DNA from: Candidatus Enterovibrio altilux
GTDB lineage: Bacteria; Pseudomonadota; Gammaproteobacteria; Enterobacterales; Vibrionaceae
Direction of reading: 5' to 3'
Assembly (NCBI RefSeq): GCF_002381345.1
Contig: NZ_CP020660.1
Coordinates: 682,001 to 746,000, forward strand
DNA length: 64,000 bases
A program made the translations under genes and the position numbers. Of this stretch, positions 10,783 through 63,707 are shown in pieces (the first letter of the stretch is position 1; each line of letters starts with the position of its first letter). The notes below the pieces were generated by a model. The model was given only the letters and a program-made list of their open reading frames with translations, had not been told where the DNA came from and ran no database searches.

Positions 10783-10849
10783 CACTTTTTTCCCTGTTTG
10801 TATAACACTCAGGACCATCCAACAAATGACCATAGTGTCATGTTGCTAT

Positions 10850-12093
10850 GCTTTGTTTCCTCATTAAAATTCAGATAGCAAATCCCAACATGTTCCACTA
10901 TTAGACAATCGTTTTCGTTGTAGGCATACCTAGCCTTATCAGCTTATTGAACGCTTTTATCATGGCGTCAGTTTCATTAATCTAAGTGCCGTGATTTCTT
11001 AGGCTCAACGTTCCTACCAGTAGTTTTTAACTGGAACCATTTTTGTCTCTGCTAGATAACGTTTATAGTAATAATATTTCGCCTTATAATGCTGCTTTAA
11101 ACCATATAATTGCTGATAACTGACCGCTAAGTTATACGAATGGCTTCGCTTTTTCACAAGTTTCTTCTTTACTTAGGAGGGATGAATGGAACTGCTTATT
11201 TAATATAAGCACCACCGCCTAACCTTGCATTGATTCTTAGGGAGGTCTATTTGAAAAAGTTAGGTAGCACTTCACCATCAGTCATATTTGACGCACTTAA
11301 CTCAGCAGCAATAATTCCACGCGTCTTTATATCTACCACTAGATGTAACTTGCCAAACTCTCCGTTTCCCATAAGTGCTATGCTTTTTTTACTTCCCATG
11401 CGCCGTCACCGTAGCTTTTGAGCCCCATAAAATCAATGGCTCTGTGCTGTATACTTCCTTTATTCTTCGTCTTCAACATGACGTTAACCGTTTTAATTTG
11501 CTTGCTAATTCATGAATAGTGAGGGCATGACAATAGCAGCTGAACAAGTCTAAAAATAAAATTAATTAATCCTTTTCGACCTCTTAATAACACTGAAAAT
11601 ATTCATTTAACCATGAGGGCCGTCGTAATAGCTAAGTCTCCAGATAAACGAGGTCTTCCATAATTACCCAGCTTAGTTGGATTCCATAGCTGAATGGCTT
11701 CTTCATCAATTCAGAATATTAGTAAGCCACGATTGATTAACACTGTATTACACTGCTTCCAGTTAGCTGTTTTGTGGCGTAGATTGTTCATAGACCTGAA
11801 TATTTGAGTGAGCCTAACTGCTTAGAGTGCTCATTGAAAATTTAGTTCCCTTGTTTAGGAGATAAAAACAGTCACCATACACGTTCCCTAGCAAAGACAG
11901 CAATGATTCGAATTAGCAAATTACTTAGATAGATATTAAGCCTAAGGAATCACACAGCTCATACTAGTAAAATCGACGCCATGATAAAAGCGTTAAATAA
12001 ACTGACACCACTTGGTGTGCCTAACACGAGAGCGATTGTCTAATAGTGAATCATGTGGGGATTTGCTATCTGACTCACATTAAGAAACAAAGC
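10850..12093 (-). mobile_element. Decayed IS5-family element, compound fold-back form
   Basis: Bases 10850 to about 11868 are a near full-length minus-strand copy of the window's IS, from the 3' terminal repeat (GCTTTGTTTCC) to the eroded 5' end. At about 11869 it is joined to roughly 225 bp of the 3' end of the same IS in the plus orientation, ending AAGAAACAAAGCC at 12093. Both outer ends are therefore the IS 3' end. The transposase frame is broken by many stops and frameshifts. Confidence 0.8.
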
Positions 12094-12231
12094 CCATGAT
12101 TACTCCGCTTAGTTTGTTTCCAGTTGGTTGTTTGGTAATGAAGCTTCTTCATAGATCTGAATATTTAAATAATCCTAACTGTTTAGAACATAGGTTAACA
12201 ATTTGGTTCCATAATTTAGAAAACAAAGCTA
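12094..12231 (-). mobile_element. 5'-end fragment of the same IS
   Basis: About 138 bp matching the 5' terminal part in minus orientation, with an internal deletion of roughly 90 bp, ending at the terminal repeat AGAAAACAAAGCT. It abuts the compound element directly, so one element probably inserted beside or within another. Confidence 0.7.
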
Positions 12232-13192: not shown

Positions 13193-13738
13193 TTACTTCT
13201 TTTTAGGGGCAAGAATCATGACCATTTGACGACCTTCGATTCGCGTTGGAAAACTTTCTACTAAACAAATATCAATAGTGTCTGCCTTCAAACGATTTAG
13301 AACGTCAACACCGATCTGTTGATGCGCCATTTCGCGCCCACGGAATCGGATAGTGACTTTGACCTTATTGCCTTCTTCAATAAAGCGAATCAGGTTACGT
13401 AGTTTTACCTGATAGTCTCCAATATCAGTACCAGGACGGAATTTAATTTCCTTAACCTGAATAACTTTTTGATTTTTTTTCTGCTCTTTCGCAGCTTTAC
13501 TCTTTTCGTAAATGAACTTACCATAGTCCATCACACGACAAACTGGTGGTTCGGCATTAGGACTGATTTCAACTAAATCTACTCCCGCTTTTTCAGCTAT
13601 TCTCATAGCTTCTACAATCGAAACAACACCAACAGCTTCACCGTCAAAATCAGTTAAACGCACTTCACGTACACCAATAATTTCGTCATTTAAACGATGA
13701 GCATTTTGTTTTGCTGGGGTTTTTTTTGCGCCTTTAAT
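13193..13738 (-). CDS. infC: Translation initiation factor IF-3, AUU start
   Basis: 181 residues from an ATT codon at 13736-13738 ([20 protein letters not shown]...), against 180 in E. coli. IF-3 binds the 30S subunit, prevents premature 50S joining and discriminates against non-standard start codons. E. coli infC starts at AUU, which lets IF-3 repress its own translation. The same codon is used here, preceded by GGAGGAATAAGGT, and starting at the first ATG would lose part of the N-terminal domain. It begins three bases past the thrS stop, with its ribosome binding site overlapping the end of thrS. Confidence 0.97.
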
Positions 13739-13741
13739 ACC

Positions 13742-15676
13742 TTATTCCTCCAAAATATTGAGCGTTCGGGTGCGAATTTCATTCTCGAGCAGAGAAGCAA
13801 ATTCTTCAATTGTTAATTTACCCAAATCTTTACCTCTGCGCGTACGTACACGTACTGTTGCTTTGCCTGCTTCTATCTCTTGGTTACCACAGACAAGCAT
13901 ATAAGGTACACGCTGTATAGTATGTTCTCGAATTTTAAAGCCAATCTTCTCATTTCTCAAGTCCGCTGACGCTCTAAATCCTGCTTTTTGAAGTTTTTTC
14001 GCTATACTCTGAGCATAATCAGCCTGATTGCTGGTGATATTCATCACCACAGCCTGCAAAGGAGTCAACCAACTCGGGAAATAACCAGCATATTCTTCAA
14101 TCAAAATACCGATGAAACGTTCTAGTGAACCTAAAATAGCTCGGTGAATCATCACTGGAGTATGGCGCTCATTGTCTTCGCCAATGTACGTTGCGCCTAA
14201 ACGCTCAGGCAAAGCGAAATCAAGTTGCACAGTACCACACTGCCATGCACGATCCAAACAATCACGCAGTGTAAATTCAATCTTTGGTCCATAGAAGGCT
14301 CCTTCTCCATTCAAAATGTCAAATTTAATGCTCATGGAATCAAGTGCTTCAACCAATGCGGTTTCTGCACGATTCCACATTTCATCTGAACCAACTCGCA
14401 TCTCAGGACGCGTAGATAAATGCACAATAATTTTATTGAAACCAAAAATTTTATATATATCATAAATCATTGAAATACAATAAATTATTTCTTTTTTAGT
14501 TTGTTGAAAAGTACAAAAAATATGTGCATCATCCTGTGTGAATCCACGAACACGCATCAAGCCATGTAATGCGCCTGATGGTTCATCACGGTGACAGCTA
14601 CCAAATTCCGCCATACGAAGCGGCAAATCGCGATAAGATTTCAAACCTTGGTTAAAGATTTGTACGTGACCTGGGCAATTCATTGGTTTCAATGCATATT
14701 CACGACTTTCTGATTGTGTCGTAAACATGTAATCAGCATATTTATCCCAATGACCTGAGCGTTCCCAGAGAATGCGATCCATCATCAGTGGACCTTTCAC
14801 TTCCTGATATTCATACTCAACCAATTTCTCGCGAATCAACATTTCCAACTCACGAAATATAATCCAGCCCTTGTGATGCCAGAATACCATACCAGGCGCT
14901 TCTTGCTGCATATGATACAGAGCAAGCTGCTTACCAAGTTTACGATGATCACGTTTTTCTGCTTCTTCCAAACGAATAAGGTACGCTTTAAGTTCCTTCT
15001 TATTTCGAAATGCTGCACCATAAATACGTTGAAGCATTTTATTATTACTGTTACCTCGCCAATAGGCGCCAGCAACACTTAGAATCTTAAAGTTCTGGCA
15101 GAAGCTCATGTTCGGCACGTGCGGGCCACAACACATATCAACATACTCTTCATGGTAGTAAAGGCCAGGACAATCATCTCGAGAAATATTTTCGTTAAGA
15201 ATTTCAAGCTTGTAAGTTTCACCACGTGCTGCGAATACATCACATGCATTTTGCCAACTTACATTTTTCTTAACCACTGGATATTTAGTTTTAGTTAGCT
15301 CTTTCATGCGCTTTTCAATCGCATCAAGATCTTCTTGCGTAATAGATCGCTCAAGATCAACGTCATAGTAGAAACCGCTGTCAATAGTTGGACCAATCGC
15401 CATTTTTGCATCTGGAAATAACTGTTTAATTGCATGACCTAACAAGTGAGCACATGAGTGGCGGATAATTTCCAAGCCATCTGCATCTGTTGCAGTAATG
15501 ATTTTCAGATTCGCATCTTGTGCAATCAAATCACATGCATCAACACGTTGATTGTTAACACGACCTGCAATACAAGCTTTTGCAAGACCAGCCCCAATAT
15601 CTAGAGCAACATTAAGAGTGGAAACTGGGTTGTCAAAAGAACGTTGACTACCGTCTGTAAGAGTAATTACAGGCAT
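13742..15676 (-). CDS. thrS: Threonyl-tRNA synthetase
   Basis: 644 residues (642 in E. coli). Domains in order: TGS (1-60), the HxxxH-type second N-terminal editing domain ([12 protein letters not shown] and later CCGPHVPNM), the class II catalytic core with [14 protein letters not shown] (zinc-binding Cys), [20 protein letters not shown] (motif 2) and a motif 3 helix ending [14 protein letters not shown], then the anticodon-binding domain ([15 protein letters not shown]). It charges tRNA-Thr and edits mischarged Ser. First gene of thrS-infC-rpmI-rplT. Confidence 0.98.
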
Positions 15677-15848: not shown

Positions 15849-16886
15849 GGCTTTGTTTCCTGGTTTGAGTTAAGCTAGCAAATCCTAACATAATTAACGA
15901 TTAAACTATCGCTTTTATTTTCCATATATTTAGCTTAATCAGCTGATTTAACGCTTTTATCATGGCGGAATTTTCGATAATCTGAGCCTTATAATCTCTT
16001 AAGCTGAATGTCCCTCCTTCCAGTAATTTTTTTGTTCAAAATATTGTTGTTTTTAATAGGGAACGCGTTTACGGTTGCCATATTTCGTTTTTTAATGCCG
16101 ATTGAAACCGTATAATTTTTGGTAACTGACCGCTAAAGTACACGGATAACTTTGTTTTTTAAAAAGTTGCTCTTTTTTTGATGAAATGAATGAAACCGCT
16201 CGTTTAATACGAATGGTTTCGTAACATTGTCTGATGTCATAAGCACCATCGACCAATATTTCATTGCTTTTTCGACAAATCTGTTTGAACAAGTTAGGTA
16301 GCACTTCACCGTCAGTTACATTTAAGGCATTTAGCTAAGCAGCAATGATTTCTTGCGTTTTTATATCTATCGCTAAATGTGACTTACGTCAGATTTACCG
16401 TTTCCCATTAGTACCATGCTTTTTTACTGTCCATTCGCCTTCACCGTAGATTTTGAGCACCTTAAAATCCATTACTAAGTGCTGGATGCTTCCTTTATTC
16501 TTCATCTCAAACGTGACATTGGCCTTTTGGCTCGCTTGCTAATGTATGAATAGTGGGGACATAACAATGGCAGTTGAGCACATTTGAAAACAGAATTAAT
16601 AAATCCTTACTAACCTCTCGATGCCATTGGAAATACGTGTTTCACCATGAGTAATGGATAAGTAGCTAAATAAACTAGGTCTCCCATGATTATCCTGATT
16701 AGTTTAATGCCATAGGTGAATCGCTTCTTCATCAATCCAGAATATTAGGAATTACGATTAATTAAAGCTTAATTATACTGCTTTAGTTTGTTATTTTACA
16801 GTAAAATTTATTCATAGACTTAAATATTTAAGTGAGCTTAGCTGTTTAGAGTACAGATTAATAATCTAGTTCCATTATTAAAAATC
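15849..16886 (-). mobile_element. Decayed near full-length IS5-family element
   Basis: About 1.04 kb copy in minus orientation, from the 3' terminal repeat GGCTTTGTTTCC at 15849 to a degraded 5' end. Its broken frame still shows pieces of an IS903-like transposase, for example VDGAYDIRQCYETIRIKRAV. It is one of the copies without an inverted-arm junction. Confidence 0.8.
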
Positions 16887-17152: not shown

Positions 17153-18168
17153 TGGGCTTTATTTCACTAATATGAATGGCGTGATCCCTTAAGCTCGCTG
17201 TCTCTCCCAGTCATTTTTTGACTAGAACCATTGCTACCTCTGCTAAGGGACGTTGATAATAACCGGCTTTATTTTCCAAATAATGGAACTAAATTTTCAA
17301 TCCACAATCTAAACAATTAGGCTCACTTTAATATTCAGGTCCATGACAATCTTTGCTACAAAACAACTAACTGGAAGCAGTATAATCAAGTTTTCATCAA
17401 TCGTAGCTAGCTAACATTCTGGACTGATGAAAAACTATTCAACTATGAAGTCAAGCTAAGCAGGGTGATCATGGGAGACCTCATATATTTAGCGACTCAA
17501 CCATTACGACGACCTTCATGGTTGAATACGTATTTTCAATACCATTGAAAGATCTGCAAAGATTCATTAATCCTGTTTTTAAATTTACTCAACTGCCATT
17601 GTCATGCCCTCATTATTCATGCATTAGCAAGCGAACTACAATGGTTAACATCACGTTCAAAAAAAATAAAGGAAACATCCAGCACTTAACCATAGATTCT
17701 ACAGTGCTCAAAGTTCACGATGAAGATGAATAGACAGTAAAAAAACATGGTACTGATGGGCAACGACGAGTCTGACACAAATTACATTTAGTAATAGATA
17801 TAAATATACATAAATCATTGCTACTGAGTTAAGTGCTTTAAATGTCACTGATGGTACAGTACGAACTAACTTGCTCAAACAGACCTGCTGAAAAATTAAT
17901 AAAATATCAACCGATAATGCTTGTAACATCAAACAATATTACGAAACCGTTCAAATTAAACGTGCGGTTCCACGCATCTCATCCAAAAAAGAGCAACTGT
18001 CGGGGAACGAGGTCATCCGCGTAATTTAGTGATCAGTTACCAAAATTATACGGTTTCAAGCAGCATCGAAAAACGAGGTATGATTACCATAAACGTTCCC
18101 TAGCAAAGACTGCAATATTTAAAGTTAAAAAATTTTTGAAAAAACGTTGAACCGAAGGGCTTACAATG
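17153..18168 (+). mobile_element. Decayed IS5-family element, compound fold-back form, truncated
   Basis: Bases 17153-17264 match about half of the inverted 3' arm, ending GATAATAACC. It is joined to the 5' terminal repeat GGCTTTATTTTCC of a plus-strand copy that runs to about 18168, where the 3' tip is lost. The plus-strand transposase is broken into pieces of 60-75 codons. Confidence 0.75.
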
Positions 18169-18173
18169 CCTAG

Positions 18174-18678
18174 GTGGCTTTGTTCCTCATTCTAGTTCAG
18201 ACGGCGAATCTCCACATGATTCACTATTAAACAATCTCTTTCGTCTTAGGCATACTTCATTTTATCAACTCATTTAACGCTTTTATCATAGCGACGGTTT
18301 TACTAATCTGAGTTATGTGATTTCTTAAACTCAATGTCCCTACTAGTAGTTTTTAGGCTCGAACCATTACTGTCCCTGCTAGGGAACGTTTGCGGTAACC
18401 GGCTTTATTTCCTAAATAAAAGAACTAGATTTTCAGTCAACACTCTAAATAGTTAGGCTCACTTAAATATTCAGGTCTATTAACAATCTGCGCCACAAAA
18501 CAACTAACTGGAAGGACATTGAGCTTAAGAATTCATCATGCTCAAATTAACGAGACTTACCCCATGATAAAAGCGTCAAATAATCTGACCAAGCTTAGTA
18601 TGATAAAAACACAAGCAATTGTTTAATAGTGGATCACGTTGGGATTTGCTATCTGAATTCAAATTAGGAAACAAAGCC
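18174..18678 (+). mobile_element. Short 505-bp fold-back derivative of the IS, no transposase
   Basis: An inverted 3' arm (18174-18398) is joined at GCGGTAACC/GGCTTTATTTCC to about 110 bp of the IS 5' end. This then jumps directly (CTAACTGGAAG / GACATTGAGC) to the 3' arm, ending AGGAAACAAAGCC. The two outer arms are inverted repeats of about 170-220 bp. Both tips are present, so it has the form of a non-autonomous, MITE-like element. Confidence 0.8.
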
Positions 18679-19929: not shown

Positions 19930-20548
19930 ATCTGCTACTTGAGCTATTCAATCATGAATACCTTCCATTAAACAATTGCTTTCGTATTAAGCATACCTAG
20001 TCTTCTCAACTTATTTAATACTTTTATCATCGTGAAGGTTTCGCTAACCTGGTATTCTAATCCTTTAAGTTCAATGTCCCCCCCTCAGTAGTTTTTTAAT
20101 TCGAACCATTGCTTTCTATACTAAAAAGCTTTTATAGTAACTAGCTTTTTCTAAATCATGGAACTCACTCTTCAATTAACACTCTAAGTGGCTAACTGGA
20201 AGCAATATAATCAAACTTTAATCAATTATGGCTCACTAGCATTCTGGATTAGTGAAGAAGCCATTCAGCTATAAAATAAAACTAAACAGGCCAATCATGG
20301 GAGAACTCATTTATTTAGCAACTGAGCCATTACGACAGTACTCATGGTTAAATACATATTGTTCAATGCTATTGAGAAGTCTTCACGAATTCATTAATTT
20401 TGTCTTTAAACTTGTTCAGTTGCCTGGTTTTGTTTCCTAAATCAAAAAATTGAGTATTTAAATGAGTCTAATTGTTTAAAGCATAGATTGGTAATTTAGT
20501 TTACTAATTTAGAAAATAAAGTTTATCTGAACTCAAATTAGGAAACAA
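19930..20548 (+). mobile_element. Heavily deleted compound IS derivative
   Basis: An inverted 3' arm with an eroded tip runs from about 19930 to 20137 and is joined at TAGTAACTA/GCTTTTTCTAAATC to the IS 5' end in plus orientation. That part runs to about 20432 with deletions. A 90-bp inverted piece of the 5' end follows, then the last 28 bp of the 3' end (TCTGAACTCAAATTAGGAAAC). At least four rearrangement points are seen. Confidence 0.7.
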
Positions 20549-23983: not shown

Positions 23984-25184
23984 GGCTTTGTTTTTTAATT
24001 CAAATTCAGACAGTAAATTTCAACATGATTGACAATTAAACAATCGCTTTTATCATGCATAAATTTCGCTAACCTGAACATTATTATTTCTTACACTCAA
24101 TATCCCTCCCAGTAATTTTTGAACCCTAAGCATTGCTGTCTTTAATTAAGAACGCTTATGGTAACCATATTCTCATTTTACAATGCTGATTGGAACCGTA
24201 TAACTTCTGGTCACTGACTGCTAAATTACGCGGACGATATTGTTCCCAGAACGTTGCTCCTTTTCTTGTTGAATAAGTGGAACCGCAAGCTTAATACAAA
24301 AAATTCGTAATATTGTCTAGTGTTATCAGCATAATCAGCTAATATTTTATTGATTTTCAGACGGATCTCTTTAAGCAACTTAGGCAACATTTGACTGTTA
24401 TCACATTTAATCCACTTAACTCAGCAGCAATACTTACATACGTATTTATATCTACCGCAAAATGTTACTTACGCCAGACTCGCCATTTCCCACCAGTACC
24501 ATGCTTTTTACTTTACATTCTATTTCACCGTAGGCTTTGAACCCCGTAAGATCTATGATTAAATGCTGGATGCTTCCTTCATGCTTCATCTTGAACGTGG
24601 CGTTAACCGTTTTAGCTCGCTTGCTGATGCATGAATAATGAGGACATAGCAATGGTAATTAAATAAGTGTAACAAACAGAATAAATGAATCATTGCATAC
24701 CTCTCAATAGCATTAAAAATATACCTTTAACCATAAGAGCAGCCGTAATGCGTAAGTCGCGAAATAAACTAGCTCTCCCATGATTACTCTACTTAGTTTA
24801 ATCCCATAACTGAATAACTTCTTCATCAATCCTACATGTTAATCATCCACGATTGATTAAAGCTTTATCATGCTGCTCCCGGTGAGTTGTTTTGTAGCGC
24901 AGATTGCTCATAGACCTGAGTATTTAAGTAAACTTAACTGTTTCAAGCACTGATTGAAAATTTAGCTCCCTTATTTAAGAAATAAAACCGGTTACCATAA
25001 CCATTACTTAGCAAAGAGAGTACTAGCTCGAGTCAAAAAACTATTTGGAGGAACATGAATCCTAAGGGATTACACAACTTGGATTAAAAAAATGAAGTCT
25101 GCCCAACACGCAAGCGATTGTTTAATCATGAATCATGAATCATATTGAAATTTAATGTCTGCACTCGAATTAGGCAACAAAGCC
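23984..25184 (-). mobile_element. Decayed IS5-family element, compound fold-back form
   Basis: A minus-strand copy (23984 to about 24989) is joined at AATAAAACC/GGTTACC to about 195 bp of the 3' end in plus orientation, ending TTAGGCAACAAAGCC at 25184. The structure matches the 10850 copy. The transposase is broken throughout. Confidence 0.8.
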
Positions 25185-25548: not shown

Positions 25549-26571
25549 GCTTTATTTTTTAAACCAATACTTAAAACAGTTAGGATCGCTAAAATATTCA
25601 GGTCTATGAACAAACTTCGCTAAAAAAGAACTAACTGAATGCTGTATCATCGAGCCTTAATCAATCATAGCTCAATAATATTTTTGTTTGATGAATAAGC
25701 CATTCAGCTGTGGGATCCAACTAAACAAGGTAATCACGAAAAACCTCGTGTATTTAATGACTTGGCCATTACGACGGCCCTCATGGTTAAAGGCATATTT
25801 TTAATGCCATTGAGAGGTCTGCAAGGATTCATTAATCCTGTTTTCAAATTTATTCAACTGCCGTTGCCATGACCTCACTATGCATGCATTAGCAAACGAA
25901 CCACAATAGTTAACGTCATGTTCAAAACAAAAAATAAAAGAACTATCCAGCACTTAGCCATTGATTATACGGAGCTCTAAGTATACGGTTACGGAGAATA
26001 GCAAGCCAAAAAGCATGGTCCTGACGGTTAACGTTGAATTTGACACAAGTTACGTCTAGCGGTAGATATAAATTCACATGAAATCATTGCTGCTGAGTTA
26101 AGTGCATCACACATGACTGATGGTATAATGCTACCTAACTTGCTCAAACTGCCCTGCTGCAATAATGAATTAAATATTAGGCCATGGTGCTGATGACACC
26201 AGACAGTATTACAAAACCGCTCACATTAAACGGAAGATTCCATTCGTCCTACCCAAAAAAATAATTTTTCAAAACGAGATTATTCGCATCATTTTATAGT
26301 CTGTTACCAGCCATTATATAGTTCCAATGAGTAGAAAAATGAGGTAAATTACCATAGATATAGCCTATCAAAAACAATAGTCTTTCGAGTCAAAAATTAT
26401 TCGGGGGAACCTTGCACTTAAAGGGCTATAATACCCGAATTGGATAAACCTACAACAAGATAAAAGAATGAAATAAGCTAACCGAGCTAGCTATGTCTAA
26501 AATGACAGCAAAAGTCTAATAGTTAATTATATTGAAATTTACTAGTTAAACTCGAATCAGGAAATAAAGCC
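25549..26571 (+). mobile_element. Decayed full-length IS5-family element, simple form
   Basis: About 1.02 kb plus-strand copy from GCTTTATTTTTTAAAC to AGGAAATAAAGCC, without an inverted arm at its 5' side. It ends 23 bases before the gpsA stop codon. Frames are broken; transposase fragments such as CGGTAGATATAAAT are readable. Confidence 0.8.
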
Positions 26572-35342: not shown

Positions 35343-36487
35343 GGCTTTGTTTCTTAATTTGAATTCAGATAGCGCATCCCAAGATGATTCACTATCAGAC
35401 AATCGCTTTCATGTTAGGCATACCTAGCCCGGTCAGCTTATTTAACGTTTTTGCCATGGCGTAAATTTCATTAATCTGAATTACATGATCCTTTAGGTTC
35501 AATGTCCCTCCCAGAAGTTTAATGAAGAAACTGTTTAGCTATAGAATCAAGCGATGCTAGGTAATCATTTGACTCGAACCATTACTATTTCTGCTAGGTA
35601 ACGTTTATGACAACCGGTTTTATTTTTTAAAGAAAAGACCTGAATTTTTAGTCAACACGCTAAATAGTTAGGCTCATTTGAATATTCAGGTCTATGAAAA
35701 ATCTTCGCTACAAAACAACTAACCGAAAGCAGTATAATAAAGTTTTAATGAATTGTGGTTCACTAACATTCTGAATGTGGGAGACCTCGTTTATTTAGCG
35801 ACTTAACCATTACGACGGCCCTCATGGTTAAATACGTATTTTCAATGCCATTGAGAGATCTGCAAACATTCATTAACTCTGTTTTTTTAAAGTTGCTCAA
35901 CTACCGTTGCTATGCTCTCACTCTTCATGCATTAGTAAACGAGCCAAAACAGCTAACGTCACGTTCAAGACGAGAAATAAAGGAAGCATCAAGTACTTAG
36001 CCATTGATGCTACGGGACTCAAAGTCTATGGTGAAAGATAATGGAAGGTCAAAAAGCATGGTACTAATGAAAAACGGCAAGTCTGGCGCAAGTTACATTT
36101 AGCGGTAGATATAAATGTGCATGAAACTATTATTGCTGAGTGAAGTGCATCAAATGTAATTGACGGTAAAGTGCTATCTAACTTGTTCAAACAGACCCAC
36201 CGAAAAATCAATGAAATATCAATCCATAATGCTTATTAAGACGCCAGACAATATTACGAAACCGCTCATATTAAACAAGCGATCCCACTCATCCTACCAA
36301 GAAAAAGAGCAACTTTGGGGAAACAAGATCATCCGCGTAATTTGCTGTCAGTTACCAGAAGTTATACGGTTCAAATTAGCATTGGAAAACAAGGTATGGT
36401 TGCCATAAACGCTCCCTATCAGAGACGATAATGTTTCAAATCAAAAAATTCCTAGGAGGGACATTGAGCTTAAGAGATCACAATGCT
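35343..36487 (+). mobile_element. Decayed compound IS element with a relocated internal block
   Basis: An inverted 3' arm (35343 to about 35615) is joined at ACAACC/GGTTTTATTTTTT to a plus-strand IS that runs to about 36487. A 48-bp block (35521-35568) sits inside the left arm. It matches the segment missing from the normal place at about 35776 (CTGAAT/GTGGGAG). The 3' tip is lost. Confidence 0.8.
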
Positions 36488-37495: not shown

Positions 37496-37673
37496 TTTAT
37501 CCATATATACTCCTAATCATTGAAGATACTTAATTTATTAATCTGTATAATCAGACTATAGGTAATAAAACTTTTTTAACTGACAGTCAAACATAAAAAT
37601 TAGAAGCCTAACTCAATTGAGTTGTAATGGTAGAAGACGTGACCGTATAGAAACAGTACTACTTATATTACAA
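37496..37673. other. Spacer after the gluQ remnant
   Basis: About 180 bp of AT-rich sequence without IS similarity; ATTGAAGAT near 37521 may be the eroded IED motif of gluQ, but this is too short to be sure. Confidence 0.3.
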
Positions 37674-38858
37674 GCGTTTTTTTAATTTTAGTACAGATAG
37701 CAAATCCCCATATCATTTATTATTAGACAATCGCTTTCGTATTAGGCATACCTAGTCTTCTCAACTTATTTAGTATTTTATCATAGCGTCGGTTTCACTA
37801 ATTTAAGTCATGTGATCCCTTAGACTCAATTTCCCCCCCAAGTAATTTTTTACTCGAAGCATTGCTGTCTCTGCAAGGGAACGTTTATGGTAGTCGACTT
37901 TATTTCCTAAATAAGGAAACTAAGTTTTTAATCAACACTCTAAACAGTTGGGCTCACTAACATTTTGGATTACTAAAAAAGCTATTCAGCTATGAAATTA
38001 CACTAAGCAGAGTAATTACGGAAGACCTCGTTTATTTAGCGGCTTAGCCATTACAATGATCCTCATTATAAAATGCATATTTTCAATGCTATTGAGAGGT
38101 CTGCAATGGTTAATTAATTCTGTTTTCAAACTTGTTCAACTGCCCTTGTCATGTCCTCCCTATTCATACATTAGCAAGCGAACTAAAACGATTAACATCA
38201 TGTTCAAGAAGAGTAAAGGAAGCATACAGCACTTAACGATTGATTTTACAGGGCTCAAAATCTACGGCAAAGGAGAATGAAAAGTAAAAAAGCATGGTAC
38301 TAATGGGAAACGACATGCCTGGCATAGGTTATATTTAGCGGTAAATATAAATACGCATGAAATTATTACTGCTGAGCTAAGTGCATCAAATATGACTGAT
38401 GGTGAAGTGCTACTGACTTACTCAAACAAGTCCGTCGAAAAATCAATAAAATCTCAGTTAATGGTGCTTATGACACCAGATAATGTTACAAAAACTGTTC
38501 GGATTAAACGAACGGTTCCACTCATACCACCAAGAAAAAGAGCAATTTTTTAAAAGCGAGGTCATCCGCGTAATTTAACGATAAGTTACCAGAAGTTACA
38601 TGATTCCAACCAGCATTGACAAACCAGGTATGATTACCAGAAACGTTCCCTCATAGAGACAGCAATGTTTCGAGTAAGAAAACTACTTGGAGGAACATTG
38701 AACTTAAGAGAGCATAATGCTCAGATTGACTAGACTTACGCCATAATAAAAGTGTTAAATAAGTTAACCTGGTTAAGTATGTCTAATATAAAAAGCGACT
38801 GTTTCATCATAAAACATGTTGAGATTGGCTATCTAAACTCGAATTAGAAAAGAAAGCC
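37674..38858 (+). mobile_element. Decayed compound IS element with a repeat-mediated deletion
   Basis: An inverted 3' arm (37674 to about 37893) is joined at ATGGTAGTCG/ACTTTATTTCC to a plus-strand IS ending GAATTAGAAAAGAAAGCC at 38858. About 120 bp near the 5' side are missing between two copies of GGCTCACT. The transposase is in pieces of at most about 75 codons. Confidence 0.8.
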
Positions 38859-42730: not shown

Positions 42731-43990
42731 AATTTTATTTCCTCATTCAAATTCAAATTTAAATAGTAAACTACAACACAATTCATTATTTAATGATTAC
42801 TTGCGTTTTAAACATACTGAAACTTATCAGGTTATTTCACGCTTTGATGATTATGTAGCTTTCATCAATCTAAGCATTATAATCGATTAGACTCACTGTC
42901 CCTACCAGTCATTTTTTTGATTCAAACCATTGTTGTCTCTGCTAGGAAACGTTTATGGTAACCGGCTTTATTTCCTAAATAAGGAAACTCAGTTATTAAC
43001 CTATGCTCTAAACAACTAGGTTCACTTAAATATTCCTGTCTACAGATAAGCCTCAATACAAAACAACTCATTATGAGCAATATAATCAAGCTTTAATAAA
43101 TTATAACTCACTAATATACTGGATTGAAGAAGAACCCATGTAGCTACTAAATCAAACTAAGCAGGATAATCGTGAGGGATCTCATTACGATGACTTTGAT
43201 AGTTAAACGCATATCTTCAATGCCATTGAGAGATCTGCAAGAATTAATGAACTATGTTTTCACACTTGTTCAACTGCCGTTGTCATATTCTCACTATACG
43301 CGTATTAATAAGCGAGACAAAACGGTTAACGTCGCAGTCAAAACGAAAATTAAAGGAACGATCCAGCATTAACCTATTTATTCTACAGGACTAAAAGTCA
43401 CGGTGAAGATGAATAAAAAGTACAAAATAAGGCATTAATGGTAAACGGCGAGTCTGGTGCAAGTTACATTTAGCGGTAGATGTAAATGCGTATGTAATGA
43501 TTGCTGCTAAATTAAATACGTCAAATATGACTGACGGTGAAGTGCTATTTAATTTACTTAAACAAGCACACGGCAAAGTCAATGAAATATCAGGCGAGAG
43601 TGCTTAAAATACCAGACAATACTACGAAACCGGTTGTATTACATAAGTGGTGCCATTCATCCCACCAAAAAAAGGAACAACTCCTTAGGCAAAAGATCAT
43701 CCGTGTAATTTAGCAACCAGTGACCAAAATTATACGATTCAAGTCAGCATTGGAAAACAAAGTATAGTTACCATAAATGGTTCCTATCAAAAACAACAAT
43801 GTTTTGAATCAAAAAACTACTCGGAGGAACATTAAATCCAGGAAATTACCATGCTCAGATTGACGAACTCTACGCCAGGATAAAAGCATTCAATAAGCTA
43901 ACCAGGCTAAGTATGCCTGAAACGCAAGTAAGCATCTAAAAGTTAATAGTATTGGGATTTGTTATCTGAACTTGCATTATAAACAAAGCC
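42731..43990 (+). mobile_element. Decayed compound IS element, best-preserved layout
   Basis: An inverted 3' arm (42731-42962) ends ATGGTAACC and is followed at once by GGCTTTATTTCC, the 5' terminal repeat of a plus-strand IS that runs to AAACAAAGCC at 43990. The total is about 1.26 kb with both arms of about 230 bp. This copy best shows the full fold-back architecture. The transposase is still broken by stops. Confidence 0.85.
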
Positions 43991-52158: not shown

Positions 52159-53208
52159 GCCTTTGTCTCCTAAATCAGGGAATTCCATTATTAACCTACA
52201 TTCTCAACAGTTAGGTTAACTGAAATATTCAGGTCTCTGAACGAGCTTCACTACAAAATAACTAACTGGGAACAGTATGATTCAGTTTCAATCAATCGTG
52301 ACTCACTAATATTTTGGATTGCTCAAAAAGCCATGCAGCTATATAATTAAACTAAACAAGGTTATCGTAGATACCTCGTTTATTTAGCAACTGACCAATT
52401 ACGATAGTTTTCATGATCAAACGAGTATTTTCAATGCTCTTAAAGAGTCTGCAAAGATGCATTAATTCTGTTTTCAAATTTATTCAACTGCCGTTATCAT
52501 ACCCTCATTATTCATGCCTTAGGAAGCAAACCAAAACAGTTAACGTCAAGTTCAAGGCAAAGAATAAAGGAACCATCTAGCACTTCGACATTGATTTTAC
52601 AGGGCTCGAAGTCTACGGTGAAGATGGATAGAAAATAAAAGAAATATGGTGCGGATGAAAAACGGCAAATTTAGCACAAATTATATTTAGGAATAGATAT
52701 CAACACACCTAAAATGATTACTACTGAGTTCAGTGCATCTAATGTGACTGACTGTGAAGCGCTACCTAACTTGCTCAAACAGACCACTGCAAAATCAATG
52801 AAATATCAGCCAATGGTGCTCACGATACCAGACAATATTACGAAACCTTTCGTATTGAACGAACAGTTTCACTCATTCCACCAAGAAAAGGAACAACTTT
52901 TTAAAAACGAAGCCATCCAAGTAATTTAACAACTAGTTACCAGAAATTATACGGTTTAAATCAGCATTGAAAAACGAGGAATGGTTACCATCAATGTTCC
53001 ATATCAGAGACGGCCATGTTTCAAGTCAAAAAATTATTCGAAAGGGCATTGAGCTTCAGAAATCACAATACTCAAACTAGCGAAACCGACGCCATGATAA
53101 AAGCATTACATAAGCTAATAGGGCTAGACATTCCTAGCACGAAAGCCAGTGTTCGATAATGAATCATGTTGAAATTTACTATTTGAACTCGTATTAGGAA
53201 ACAAAGCC
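52158..53208 (+). mobile_element. Decayed full-length IS5-family element, simple form
   Basis: About 1.05 kb plus-strand copy from GGCCTTTGTCTCC at the hemY stop to AGGAAACAAAGCC at 53208, without an added inverted arm. It is one of the more complete copies, but the transposase is still broken into frames of at most about 70 codons. Confidence 0.85.
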
Positions 53209-57501: not shown

Positions 57502-58452
57502 CGATTTTATCTCCTAATTAGAGTTCAGACAACAAATCCTACCATGGTTAACAATTAAATAATTGCTTTTGTTTGAAACATACTTATCCCTATCAAATTA
57601 TGTAATACTTTTATCAGGACATAAGTTTCGTTAATCTGAGCATTATAATCTCTTCAGCTCACTGTCCTTCCAAGTAGTTGTTAACTCGAAACAGTGCCGT
57701 TTTTAACAGGGAATGTTTATAGTAACCATACTCCATTTTACAGTGCTGATTGAACCGTTCGTTTAATACGAACGGTTTCGTAACATTGTCTGGTGTTGTA
57801 AGCTCCATCAGCGAATGTTGCATCGATTTTCCCATCAGTACTATGCTTTTTTACTTTTTATTCGCCTTCATAAGAGACTGTACGCCCCGTAGAATCAATG
57901 GCTACGTGTTGAATACTTCCCTTTATTCTTCGTCTTGAACATGAAGCTAACCGTTTTGGCTCGCTTGCTAATACATGAATCGTGATGGCATAACAATTGC
58001 AGTTGAATAAATTTGAAAACAGAATTAATTAATTCTTGCAAACTCTTCAATGACATTGAAAATACGCATTTAATCATTAGGACCATCGCAATGGCTAAGT
58101 CACTAAATAAACGAAATCTTCCATGATTACCCTGCTTAGTTTGATTCCATAGTTTAATAGCTTCTTAATCAATCCAGGATATTAGTGAACCACTATTGAT
58201 GAAAACTTGATTATACTATTTACAGTTAGTTTTTTTGCAGCGAATATTTTTTATAAACATGAATGTTTAAGTAAGTCTAACTGTTTAGAGTATTGGTTGA
58301 AAATTTAGTTTTATTTAGGACATAGAACCAATTATCATAAAGATTCCATAGTAGAGCCAACAAGACTAGGTATGCCTGGCATGAAAGTGATTATCTAATA
58401 ATTAATCATGTAAAAATTTATTTTTTGAATTTAAATTAGGAAATAAAATCCT
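57502..58452 (-). mobile_element. Decayed compound IS element with several deletions
   Basis: A minus-strand copy with at least two internal deletions is joined at about 58327 (CATAGAACC/AATTATCATAAAG) to a shortened 3' arm in plus orientation, ending AGGAAATAAAATCC at 58452. The architecture is as in the 10850 copy. Confidence 0.75.
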
Positions 58453-59859: not shown

Positions 59860-59930
59860 TAATAAATTTAACATTATATAACATCAGTGACAAGTAAATT
59901 GATTCGTGACAAACAACAGTCTTAATGATA

Positions 59931-60824
59931 ATGTAATATCTTAATTTAAGTTAAAATAGCAGAATCTCAATATAATTCACTATTAAATGATCATTTTTGT
60001 TTGAACCGCATAATTACTGGTGACTTAGCACTAAATTACGCGGATGATCTCCTTCCAAAGAAATTGCTCCTTTTCTTGGTGGAATAAGTGAAGCAGCTCA
60101 TTTAATCCGAACGGTTTCGTAACTTTGTCTCGTATCATAAGCATCATTAGCTGATATTTCATGAATTCTATAAAGGGTCTGTTTGAGCAAGTTAAGTAGC
60201 ACTTCACCGGTAGTCATATTTTATACACTTAGCTGAGCTGCAATGATTTCATCCGTGTTATATCTACCGCTAAATGTAACTTACGCTAGACTTCCCCCGC
60301 TTTTCATCAGTGCCATGCGTTTTTACTTTCTATTTTCCTTCACCGTAGACTTTGAGCCCCATAAGATCAATGACTAAGTCACTAAATAAACGAGGTCTTC
60401 CATAATTACTCTGCTTAATTTAATTTCATAACTGAATTGCTTTTTCATCAATTCACGATGTTAGCGAACCACGCTTGATTACACTGCTTCTAGTTAGTTA
60501 TTTTACAGCAAAAATTATTCATAAGCCTAAATATTTAGGCAAGCCTAACTGTTTGAGTATTCATTTAAAACTTAGTTTTTTATTTAGAAAAGCAAGCCAA
60601 TTACCATAAATATTACCTAGCAAGGCAGGAATGGTTCAAGCCAAAAAACTGCTGGGAGGGACATTGAACCTAAGGAATCACACAACTCAGATTAGTGAAA
60701 CCGATGCCATGATAAAAGCGTTAAATAAGCTGGTAAGACTAGCCATACCTAACACGAAAGTGATTGTCTAATAGTGAGTCATGCTGAAATTTACTATCTG
60801 AGTTCAAATCAAAAAAACAAAGCC
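59931..60824 (-). mobile_element. Decayed compound IS element with internal deletions
   Basis: A minus-strand copy (about 59931-60594), shortened by deletions and with an eroded 3' tip, is joined at AAGCAAGCC/AATTACCATAAATATT to a 230-bp 3' arm in plus orientation that ends AAAAAAACAAAGCC at 60824. Confidence 0.75.
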
Positions 60825-62839: not shown

Positions 62840-63707
62840 GGTTTTATTTCCTAAATAAGAGAACTAAATTTTCAATCAACACTCTAAACAGAGAGGTTAA
62901 CTTAAATATCCAGGCCTATAAACAAGCTTAACTACAAAACAACTAACTGGAAGCAGTATACTCAAGGTTTAATTAATAGTGCTCAACTACCATTGCCATG
63001 CCCTTGCTATTCATGCATTAGCAAGCGAGTCAGAATGGTTAACGTCACGTTCAAGACGAAGAATAAAGGAACTATACAGTACTTGAACATTTATTCTACG
63101 AGTTTAACAGTCTACAAGAGAGACGCATTGAAAGTAACACAGCCTTGCACTGACGGGAAACTTAGAATTTGACGCAAATTACATCTAGTAGTAAATATAA
63201 ATATGCATGCCATTATTGCTACTGAGTTAAGTTCATTGAATATGACTGGCTGCGCAGTAATACTGAACCCGCTCCACCAGATCCGTCTAATAATCAATAA
63301 GATATAAAGAAATAGTTGTTGCGGCACAAAAAAATATTATAAAGCTATTCATATTAAACAAGCTGTTTCACTCATCTCACCAGATAGGGCTCAGTTTTCT
63401 AAGAATAAGGTCATCTACACAATATAGCGCTCAAGTTACCATAAGTTATACAATATAAAGCAGTATAAAAAAAGAAGGTATGGTTAACGTAAACCTTCTC
63501 TATCAAAGATGGCACTATTTCAAGTCAAAAACTTTTCAGAGTAACATTGAGCCTAAGAGATCACATTACTCAGATTAGTGAGACTGACGCCATAATAAAA
63601 AACATTAAATAAACTAACAGGGCTAGGTATGCCTAAAACAAAAGTGATTGTTTAATAGTACATTTTGTTAAAATATGCTATCTGAACTTAAATTAGGGAA
63701 CAGAGCC
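62840..63707 (+). mobile_element. Decayed IS5-family element inside metH
   Basis: A plus-strand copy from the 5' terminal repeat GGTTTTATTTCC to TTAGGGAACAGAGCC at 63707, with a deletion of about 190 bp in its first half. No metH sequence is seen on the far side, so the insertion was followed by loss of the gene body. Confidence 0.8.

Follow-up and report, generated by a model that had tools for sequence, protein, structure and literature searches.

A compound IS903-like insertion sequence with one end replaced, most likely by nested insertion, in the genome of an anglerfish symbiont

The shrinking genome of the light-producing symbiont of an anglerfish harbours, alongside simple copies of a decayed IS5-family (IS903-like) insertion sequence (IS), a compound form of the same element. 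In this compound, an inverted IS 3' end of about 226 bp, referred to below as the arm, is joined to base 1 of the left terminal repeat of a whole IS. The arm was present at 89 of the 224 left ends scored in 864 kb. The consensus of the compound consists of a left module of 226 bp and a right module that is the whole IS, with no sequence between them, and the unit has the long inverted termini that a preliminary description of this DNA had proposed. We interpret it as an end-replacement derivative of the IS, which would have arisen by nested insertion and then transposed as a unit between two right ends. Based on the sequence comparisons presented here, we assign a probability of about 0.8 to this reading as a whole, the movement as a unit included.

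The window, i.e. the whole stretch of 64,000 nucleotides that was analysed, is G000:C1:682001-746000 of a genome of 2,143,356 bases in four contigs, the largest of 1,604,691 bases. Sample 1 comprised the window and 20 evenly spaced 20-kb stretches (464 kb), and sample 2 consisted of 20 further 20-kb stretches (400 kb). Together they make up 864 kb, about 40% of the genome, and were taken from contigs C1 and C2 only. A profile of the IS, 1049 positions long, was used, and all 'profile positions' mentioned below refer to its numbering. Matches to this profile, hence to a single decayed IS, accounted for 27% of the 400 kb of sample 2. Left ends entered the counts on two conditions: the match to the profile had to start at most 8 positions from the end, and this end had to be at least 60 bases away from the upstream edge of the stretch.

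The IS is about 1.05 kb long and encodes a transposase of about 306 amino acids. The consensus of the latter, derived from decayed copies and with an X at one stop, matched the NCBIfam IS5-family model NF033579 with 363 bits (cut-off, 140), which identifies it as an IS5-family DDE transposase; it is at most 87% identical to its matches in Vibrio. Base counts at both ends of the copies in this genome and of their relatives indicated terminal repeats of about 18 bp starting with GGCTTTGTT. A 9-bp duplication was perfect in 18 of 61 related copies and was also seen around two nested compounds, while isolated copies of this genome were at the level of shuffled flanks. The element probably belongs to the IS903 group of the IS5 family.

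A published study (PMC6020299) deals with 'Candidatus Enterovibrio luxaltus' CC26, a luminous symbiont that lives with the anglerfish C. couesii. According to the main text of that paper, 672 IS5 transposase genes were counted, all transposase genes were termed pseudogenes, the transposases were said to be truncated or to lack inverted repeats, and the IS5 population was judged consistent with a single expansion followed by decay. Compared with this account, we could still recognise terminal repeats at the left ends that were scored, which numbered 224 in 40% of the genome.

An inverted 3' end fused to the 5' end of a complete plus-strand copy had been proposed at 42731-43990 of the window, and this was confirmed. 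The arm (42731-42963, minus strand) corresponds to profile positions 825-1049, approximately. It terminates with TTTATGGTAACC, which directly adjoins the inner left repeat GGCTTTATTTCC, of which base 1 is position 42964, and the complete IS body runs on the plus strand from there to the right end at 43990. Besides this flagship copy, five compounds were found on the plus strand: 17161-18175 (arm remnant 17161-17264, body from 17265, 3' end cut), 18176-18678 (arm 18176-18400, body 18401-18678, with a large internal deletion), 19965-20424 (partial, with arm 19965-20139 and body from 20140), 35343-36487 (arm 35343-35615, body from 35616, 3' end cut) and 37671-38858 (arm 37671-37895, body 37896-38858). 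Three were found on the minus strand: 10849-12094 (body 10849-11869, arm 11870-12094), 23984-25184 (body 23984-24989, arm 24990-25184) and 59930-60824 (body 59930-60598, arm 60599-60824, with internal deletions). Nine of the ten junction places that had been listed thus qualified as armed (17265, 18401, 20140, 35616, 37896 and 42964 on the plus strand; 11869, 24989 and 60598 on the minus strand). At the tenth place (58327), what there is of the arm is shortened and lies at a distance of 28 bp, so that the junction base has been lost; as its marker bases (see below) are of the compound type, the element at 57503-58447 (minus strand) is a probable compound. The coexistence of simple copies was borne out as well. 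The copy at 52159-53208 (plus strand) is armless, and those at 15850-16883 (minus strand) and 25549-26570 (plus strand) are simple copies with a decayed left end, which are missing from the counts because of the scoring rule. The copy at 62840-63707 (plus strand), which has an internal deletion, is armless and carries compound-type marker bases.

The arm was present at 54 of the 125 left ends scored in sample 1 (71 being without it) and at 35 of the 99 scored in sample 2. The junction fell on base 1 of the left repeat, with no insertion or deletion from -13 to +12 in 73 of the 89 armed left ends, and with a small one near the junction, leaving the join unchanged, in 14 others. The remaining two had extra arm bases (2 bp at L049:16979 and more than 20 bp at L197:12120). 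The claim of one fixed junction was therefore upheld, the join being the same in 87 of the 89 cases and the variation that would speak against it being confined to two. Ten seeds chosen as full matches yielded the same compound, in both orientations. Furthermore, a 96-nt model of the junction, derived from sample 1, was matched over 93-96 positions at all 68 places scored among 2,892 candidates in this genome, on all four contigs. If the 40% sample is representative, the genome would contain about 220 copies of the compound.

Some left ends counted as armless deserve a comment. One copy of sample 2 (L193:16487) was found to have an arm when its sequence was read. Nine of the 71 armless left ends of sample 1 adjoin an inverted piece of the IS with a different starting point. 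Compound markers are present in four of these nine, which fits shortened arms, and absent from the other five, which fits separate nestings.

The bodies of compound and simple copies were compared at 1041 positions, and eight sites differed with p < 1e-4, all of them within the first 104 positions. In sample 1, judged over five core sites, 47 of 54 compounds fell on the compound side, as compared with 9 of 70 simple copies (one simple copy being left out because of gaps). The marker sites were selected on sample 1 only and then tested on the independent sample 2, where, judged over seven sites, 33 of 35 compounds fell on this side and, among simple left ends, 5 of 64 (Fisher p = 1.3e-18). In related elements, the state of the simple copies was seen at positions 7 and 18 of the repeat as well as at profile sites 38, 41 and 52; site 31 was mixed (46 A, 26 T), and site 86 had mostly a third base. 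Since relatives match the simple state at most marker sites, the compound state is mostly derived. The marker bases being common in compounds and rare in simple copies, these comparisons indicate that the compound had a single origin and then spread as a unit. This supports the single event followed by spread of the preliminary description, through the fixed junction and through a marker linkage that was replicated in sample 2. It also suggests that what was published as a single IS5 expansion comprises two or more lineages, whose history can be put in order.

This order is partly reflected among the compounds themselves. The flagship belongs to a minority of 8 of the 89 compounds that have ancestral left-end bases, and all eight are also ancestral at arm positions 910-912. 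Four of them, including the flagship, have the early arm bases at 846/861, and two are undecided. In the 79 compounds with derived left ends, arm positions 910-912 were derived in 55, ancestral in 18 and undecided in 6. The two states were linked (Fisher p = 4.9e-5 for the decided cases; two compounds were undecided at the left end). The compound therefore seems to have gained substitutions during its spread, though exchange between copies could blur the order, and the later arm changes are lacking in 18 of these 79, which speaks against our reading. The two elements with other junction points (L049:16979 and L197:12120) also have ancestral arm bases and are therefore probably separate insertions. 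Pairwise likeness was slightly higher among compounds (0.748) than among simple copies (0.723; 0 of 300 shuffles), which may reflect the later spread of the former.

We compared the arm with the 3' ends of the compounds themselves. The two consensus sequences differed at 23 sites, two of which are part of the junction itself; as a gauge of noise, the 3' ends of compound and simple copies differed at 8 sites when majority bases were compared. At profile position 846, arms had 42 G and 3 T, as opposed to 30 T and 2 G in the compounds' own 3' ends, and at position 861 the figures were 38 G and 7 T versus 32 T and 4 G. The derived bases 846G and 861G were present in most arms, and CAA at 910-912 in many. 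For six arm markers, the derived side was found in 41 of 54 arms in sample 1 and 22 of 34 in sample 2, compared with 1 of 36 and 0 of 24 for the compounds' own 3' ends and 2 of 35 and 1 of 29 for simple 3' ends (gap-rich rows were left out everywhere except in the arm count of sample 1). The two 3' ends of the compound, previously described as identical, are thus not so: the arm has derived bases of its own and was already different when the form spread. It was therefore probably derived from another, mutated copy of the IS. Furthermore, it ends exactly at base 1 of the left repeat, which fits an insertion into a second, inverted copy.

We considered the possibility that the element had instead copied its own 3' end, for example by template switching, and then spread, which would imply a single origin without the intervention of a second copy. 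One fixed junction is also predicted in this case, and the changes in the arm, which encodes no transposase of the unit, could have accumulated later under relaxed constraint, i.e. after the fold-back event and before the spread. Yet, the arms are unlike the 3' ends that the compounds themselves carry, and at the arm markers the latter agree with simple copies. Moreover, the join is placed precisely at the first base of the repeat, where the interior sequence has no evident bases in common with the repeat. We therefore regard such a duplication as unlikely, though it is the most serious of the alternatives.

According to the nested-insertion reading, which we prefer, one IS copy would have inserted at profile position 825 into the 3' part of an inverted copy that was already mutated. 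The right end of the outer copy and that of the inserted copy would then have been paired, and a unit of about 1.28 kb (the 226-bp stub and a complete IS) would have transposed with 9-bp target duplications, the transposase being presumably supplied by simple or compound copies. Further shared substitutions would have been acquired during the spread. A full nested progenitor was not found in the sequence read (about 40% of the genome).

Target-site duplications, proposed in the preliminary description as a check, were sought around isolated copies. In complete compounds (n = 36), 2.69 of 9 flanking positions matched, versus 2.65 in shuffles, and in simple copies (n = 28) the values were 2.54 and 2.71. 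Allowing shifts did not bring the signal above chance for either form (z = 1.2 for compounds and -0.7 for simple copies), in a bulk test that may have low power in decayed copies; even in relatives, duplications are perfect in only 18 of 61. Nested cases are more informative because the sequence of the host IS is known. Four nested candidates were found, two of which are compounds with both right ends, and these two did show 9-bp duplications: when flanks were aligned to the IS consensus, nine host positions were duplicated in L038 (element 13499-14589; host 594-602) and in L011 (element 1430-2687; host 391-399). Within each of these two pairs, the duplicated nonamers today agree at only about 5 of 9 bases. 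No duplication was present at the flanks of the nested candidate L195, which has a shortened arm. At L040:5856-7369, a larger composite, made of a complete IS followed by a compound fragment, lies inside a host IS with 12 overlapping profile positions; this would be compatible with 9 bp and with a composite delimited by a left end on one side and a right end on the other. As isolated copies gave no duplication signal, the argument for transposition as a unit is based on the two nested cases and on the marker linkage.

Could the compound have multiplied by exchange between IS copies, through homologous recombination or gene conversion, instead of by transposition? The isolated copies, which as a group have no duplications, and the mixed marker combinations, which suggest some exchange, would agree with this. 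However, when simple and compound ends were taken together, conservation broke off abruptly at the repeats of the right end, two nested compounds were flanked by 9-bp host duplications, and arm and own 3' end were as alike within an element (0.689) as between elements (0.691). Spread by recombination is thus very unlikely. As to target preference, a weak enrichment in A was seen 11-13 bases outside the right ends. Least credible of all is a hot spot within inverted copies that would have been hit by the IS many times independently. Separate nestings exist, and this reading would account for L049:16979 and L197:12120, where an arm with ancestral markers is joined at another point, for the five left ends that adjoin inverted pieces elsewhere and lack compound markers, and for one copy of a genome of the same genus (G017) that follows a similar nonamer within a frame of unrelated sequence. 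It would not account for the shared derived bases, which flank the fixed junction on either side, are seldom seen in simple copies and were replicated in sample 2, nor for outer ends that are two right ends instead of the flanks of a complete outer copy.

We profiled 88 related loci (87 distinct), comprising the best 80 of 393 matching stretches from a scan of bacterial genomes and 8 loci from a search of relatives; loci of G009, G024 and G033 were among them. Many came from few genomes and are therefore not independent. No arm was present at any of the 78 left ends that could be scored in this set (best 80 of 393 stretches plus 8 loci). The transposase search gave matches in 28 of 61 genomes, the symbiont's own included. 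G017 (5.0 Mb) contains a related IS in many copies, most pieces being 75-81% identical, and the arm was absent at all 12 left ends examined. This many-copy IS looks intact and marks many contig ends, making it a candidate active relative. In G012 (2.6 Mb, 40 contigs), a more distant IS5 element was 40-52% identical among the matches listed, and no compound was found at the 6 places read, which were picked for far-reaching or high-scoring matches among those listed. Partial matches to the junction model were obtained in at least 6 of 60 relatives (G009, G012, G017, G024, G025 and G033). The one G017 match spanning the junction among the matches listed (on C83) lies in a putative acetyltransferase-like frame and was not counted as a junction. 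In a plasmid collection, 140 records had a match and none spanned 80% of the compound. In free-living Vibrio (L137, L158, L172 and L180), partial second IS copies were observed at the right end or a few bases from it, indicating that nesting or tandem junctions of the IS occur in free-living hosts too.

Two other features of the copies were considered and rejected. The consensus TGA at profile position 810 is not a fixed stop in the transposase, as it is merely the commonest codon (33 TGA and 25 TGG of 116) and occurs in both forms. Similarly, a deletion at about 242-424 is unlikely to represent another amplified derivative: compounds and armless copies both have it, the short direct repeat ACTTAGCCATT is present at both of its ends in the consensus, and other breakpoints recur, so that independent deletions are likelier. 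Recurrent internal deletions across copies (L031-L050 and the window) were 242/424, 683-686/854-856 and 717/794, and repeat-mediated deletion may be a main route of IS decay in this genome.

The inner left repeat offers a possible reason for the success of the compound. Position 7 of this repeat, which presumably lies within the transposase-binding part, was A in 76 of 86 typed compounds. In relatives it was G at 79 of 80 left ends and 73 of 74 right ends, and in this genome simple left ends had 67 G and 48 A, about one third of the right ends having A. The mean G-to-A decay was 0.25-0.26 over 104 comparable sites, but a few sites were near 1; the excess of A at position 7 therefore makes a founder change likely rather than proven. 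Some simple copies may also carry this change. A second change affects repeat position 18, where compounds had 51 A, 21 C and 11 T. The alteration of the inner left repeat, a former end that is now internal, at two near-invariant positions is perhaps the reason why the outer pair prevailed: a weakening of the inner end would favour that pair and would explain why about 80 derived left ends belong to compounds, as compared with 7 that stand alone. A at position 7 is also found in most of these lone copies, and it is commoner at simple left ends than at right ends, so that the change may not have disabled the left end. It is conceivable, though we hold it to be somewhat less probable than its opposite, that the left repeat had been crippled by the change at position 7 (and later at 18), that the right end of the inverted host was substituted for it as the sole route to mobility, and that the rescued lineage competed against the parental form in the burst, reaching about 40% of scored left ends. 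The terminal repeats of IS903 are presumably equivalent.

If our reading is correct, the compound would be a natural case of an IS that altered its own terminal anatomy and spread with the altered ends. This suggests a simple route by which an IS may acquire long inverted termini or exchange an end that has been damaged.

In composite transposons such as Tn5 and Tn903, a unit lying between same-type ends of inverted IS copies is mobile as a whole. The compound resembles them in being bounded by same-type ends that come from inverted IS copies; it differs from them in that one module is a 226-bp stub and the other a whole IS, with no cargo gene. It is thus no composite transposon in the sense of two near-complete IS copies around other DNA, since nothing lies between its modules. 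Neither is it a MITE, as its consensus contains the entire transposase region, the one TGA of which is not fixed among copies. The IS5 expansion reported for 'Ca. Enterovibrio luxaltus' concerns the same genome and the same IS population; the main text of that paper mentions no compound, IS903, palindromic or fold form, and uses 'inverted' once, about missing repeats (PMC6020299). A two-right-end form of this kind was not found in a literature search of openly licensed papers. External support for a pairing of two right ends comes only from constructed IS2 derivatives: in the passages of PMC3299598 that deal with them, the transposase can pair two right ends, and derivatives with two left ends formed no minicircles. 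The right/right pairing is what they share with the compound, whereas they were built in the laboratory from an IS of another family, which follows a different pathway, and these passages describe no natural spread. Finally, the IS shares with the IS903 group the transposase family, the length of about 1.05 kb and the GGCTTTGTT repeats; 9-bp duplications are present in some intact relatives. The amplified form differs from this group by a second, inverted right end outside the left end and by a left repeat that has become internal and has changed; it is best seen as an IS903-like element with one end replaced, most likely by nested insertion.
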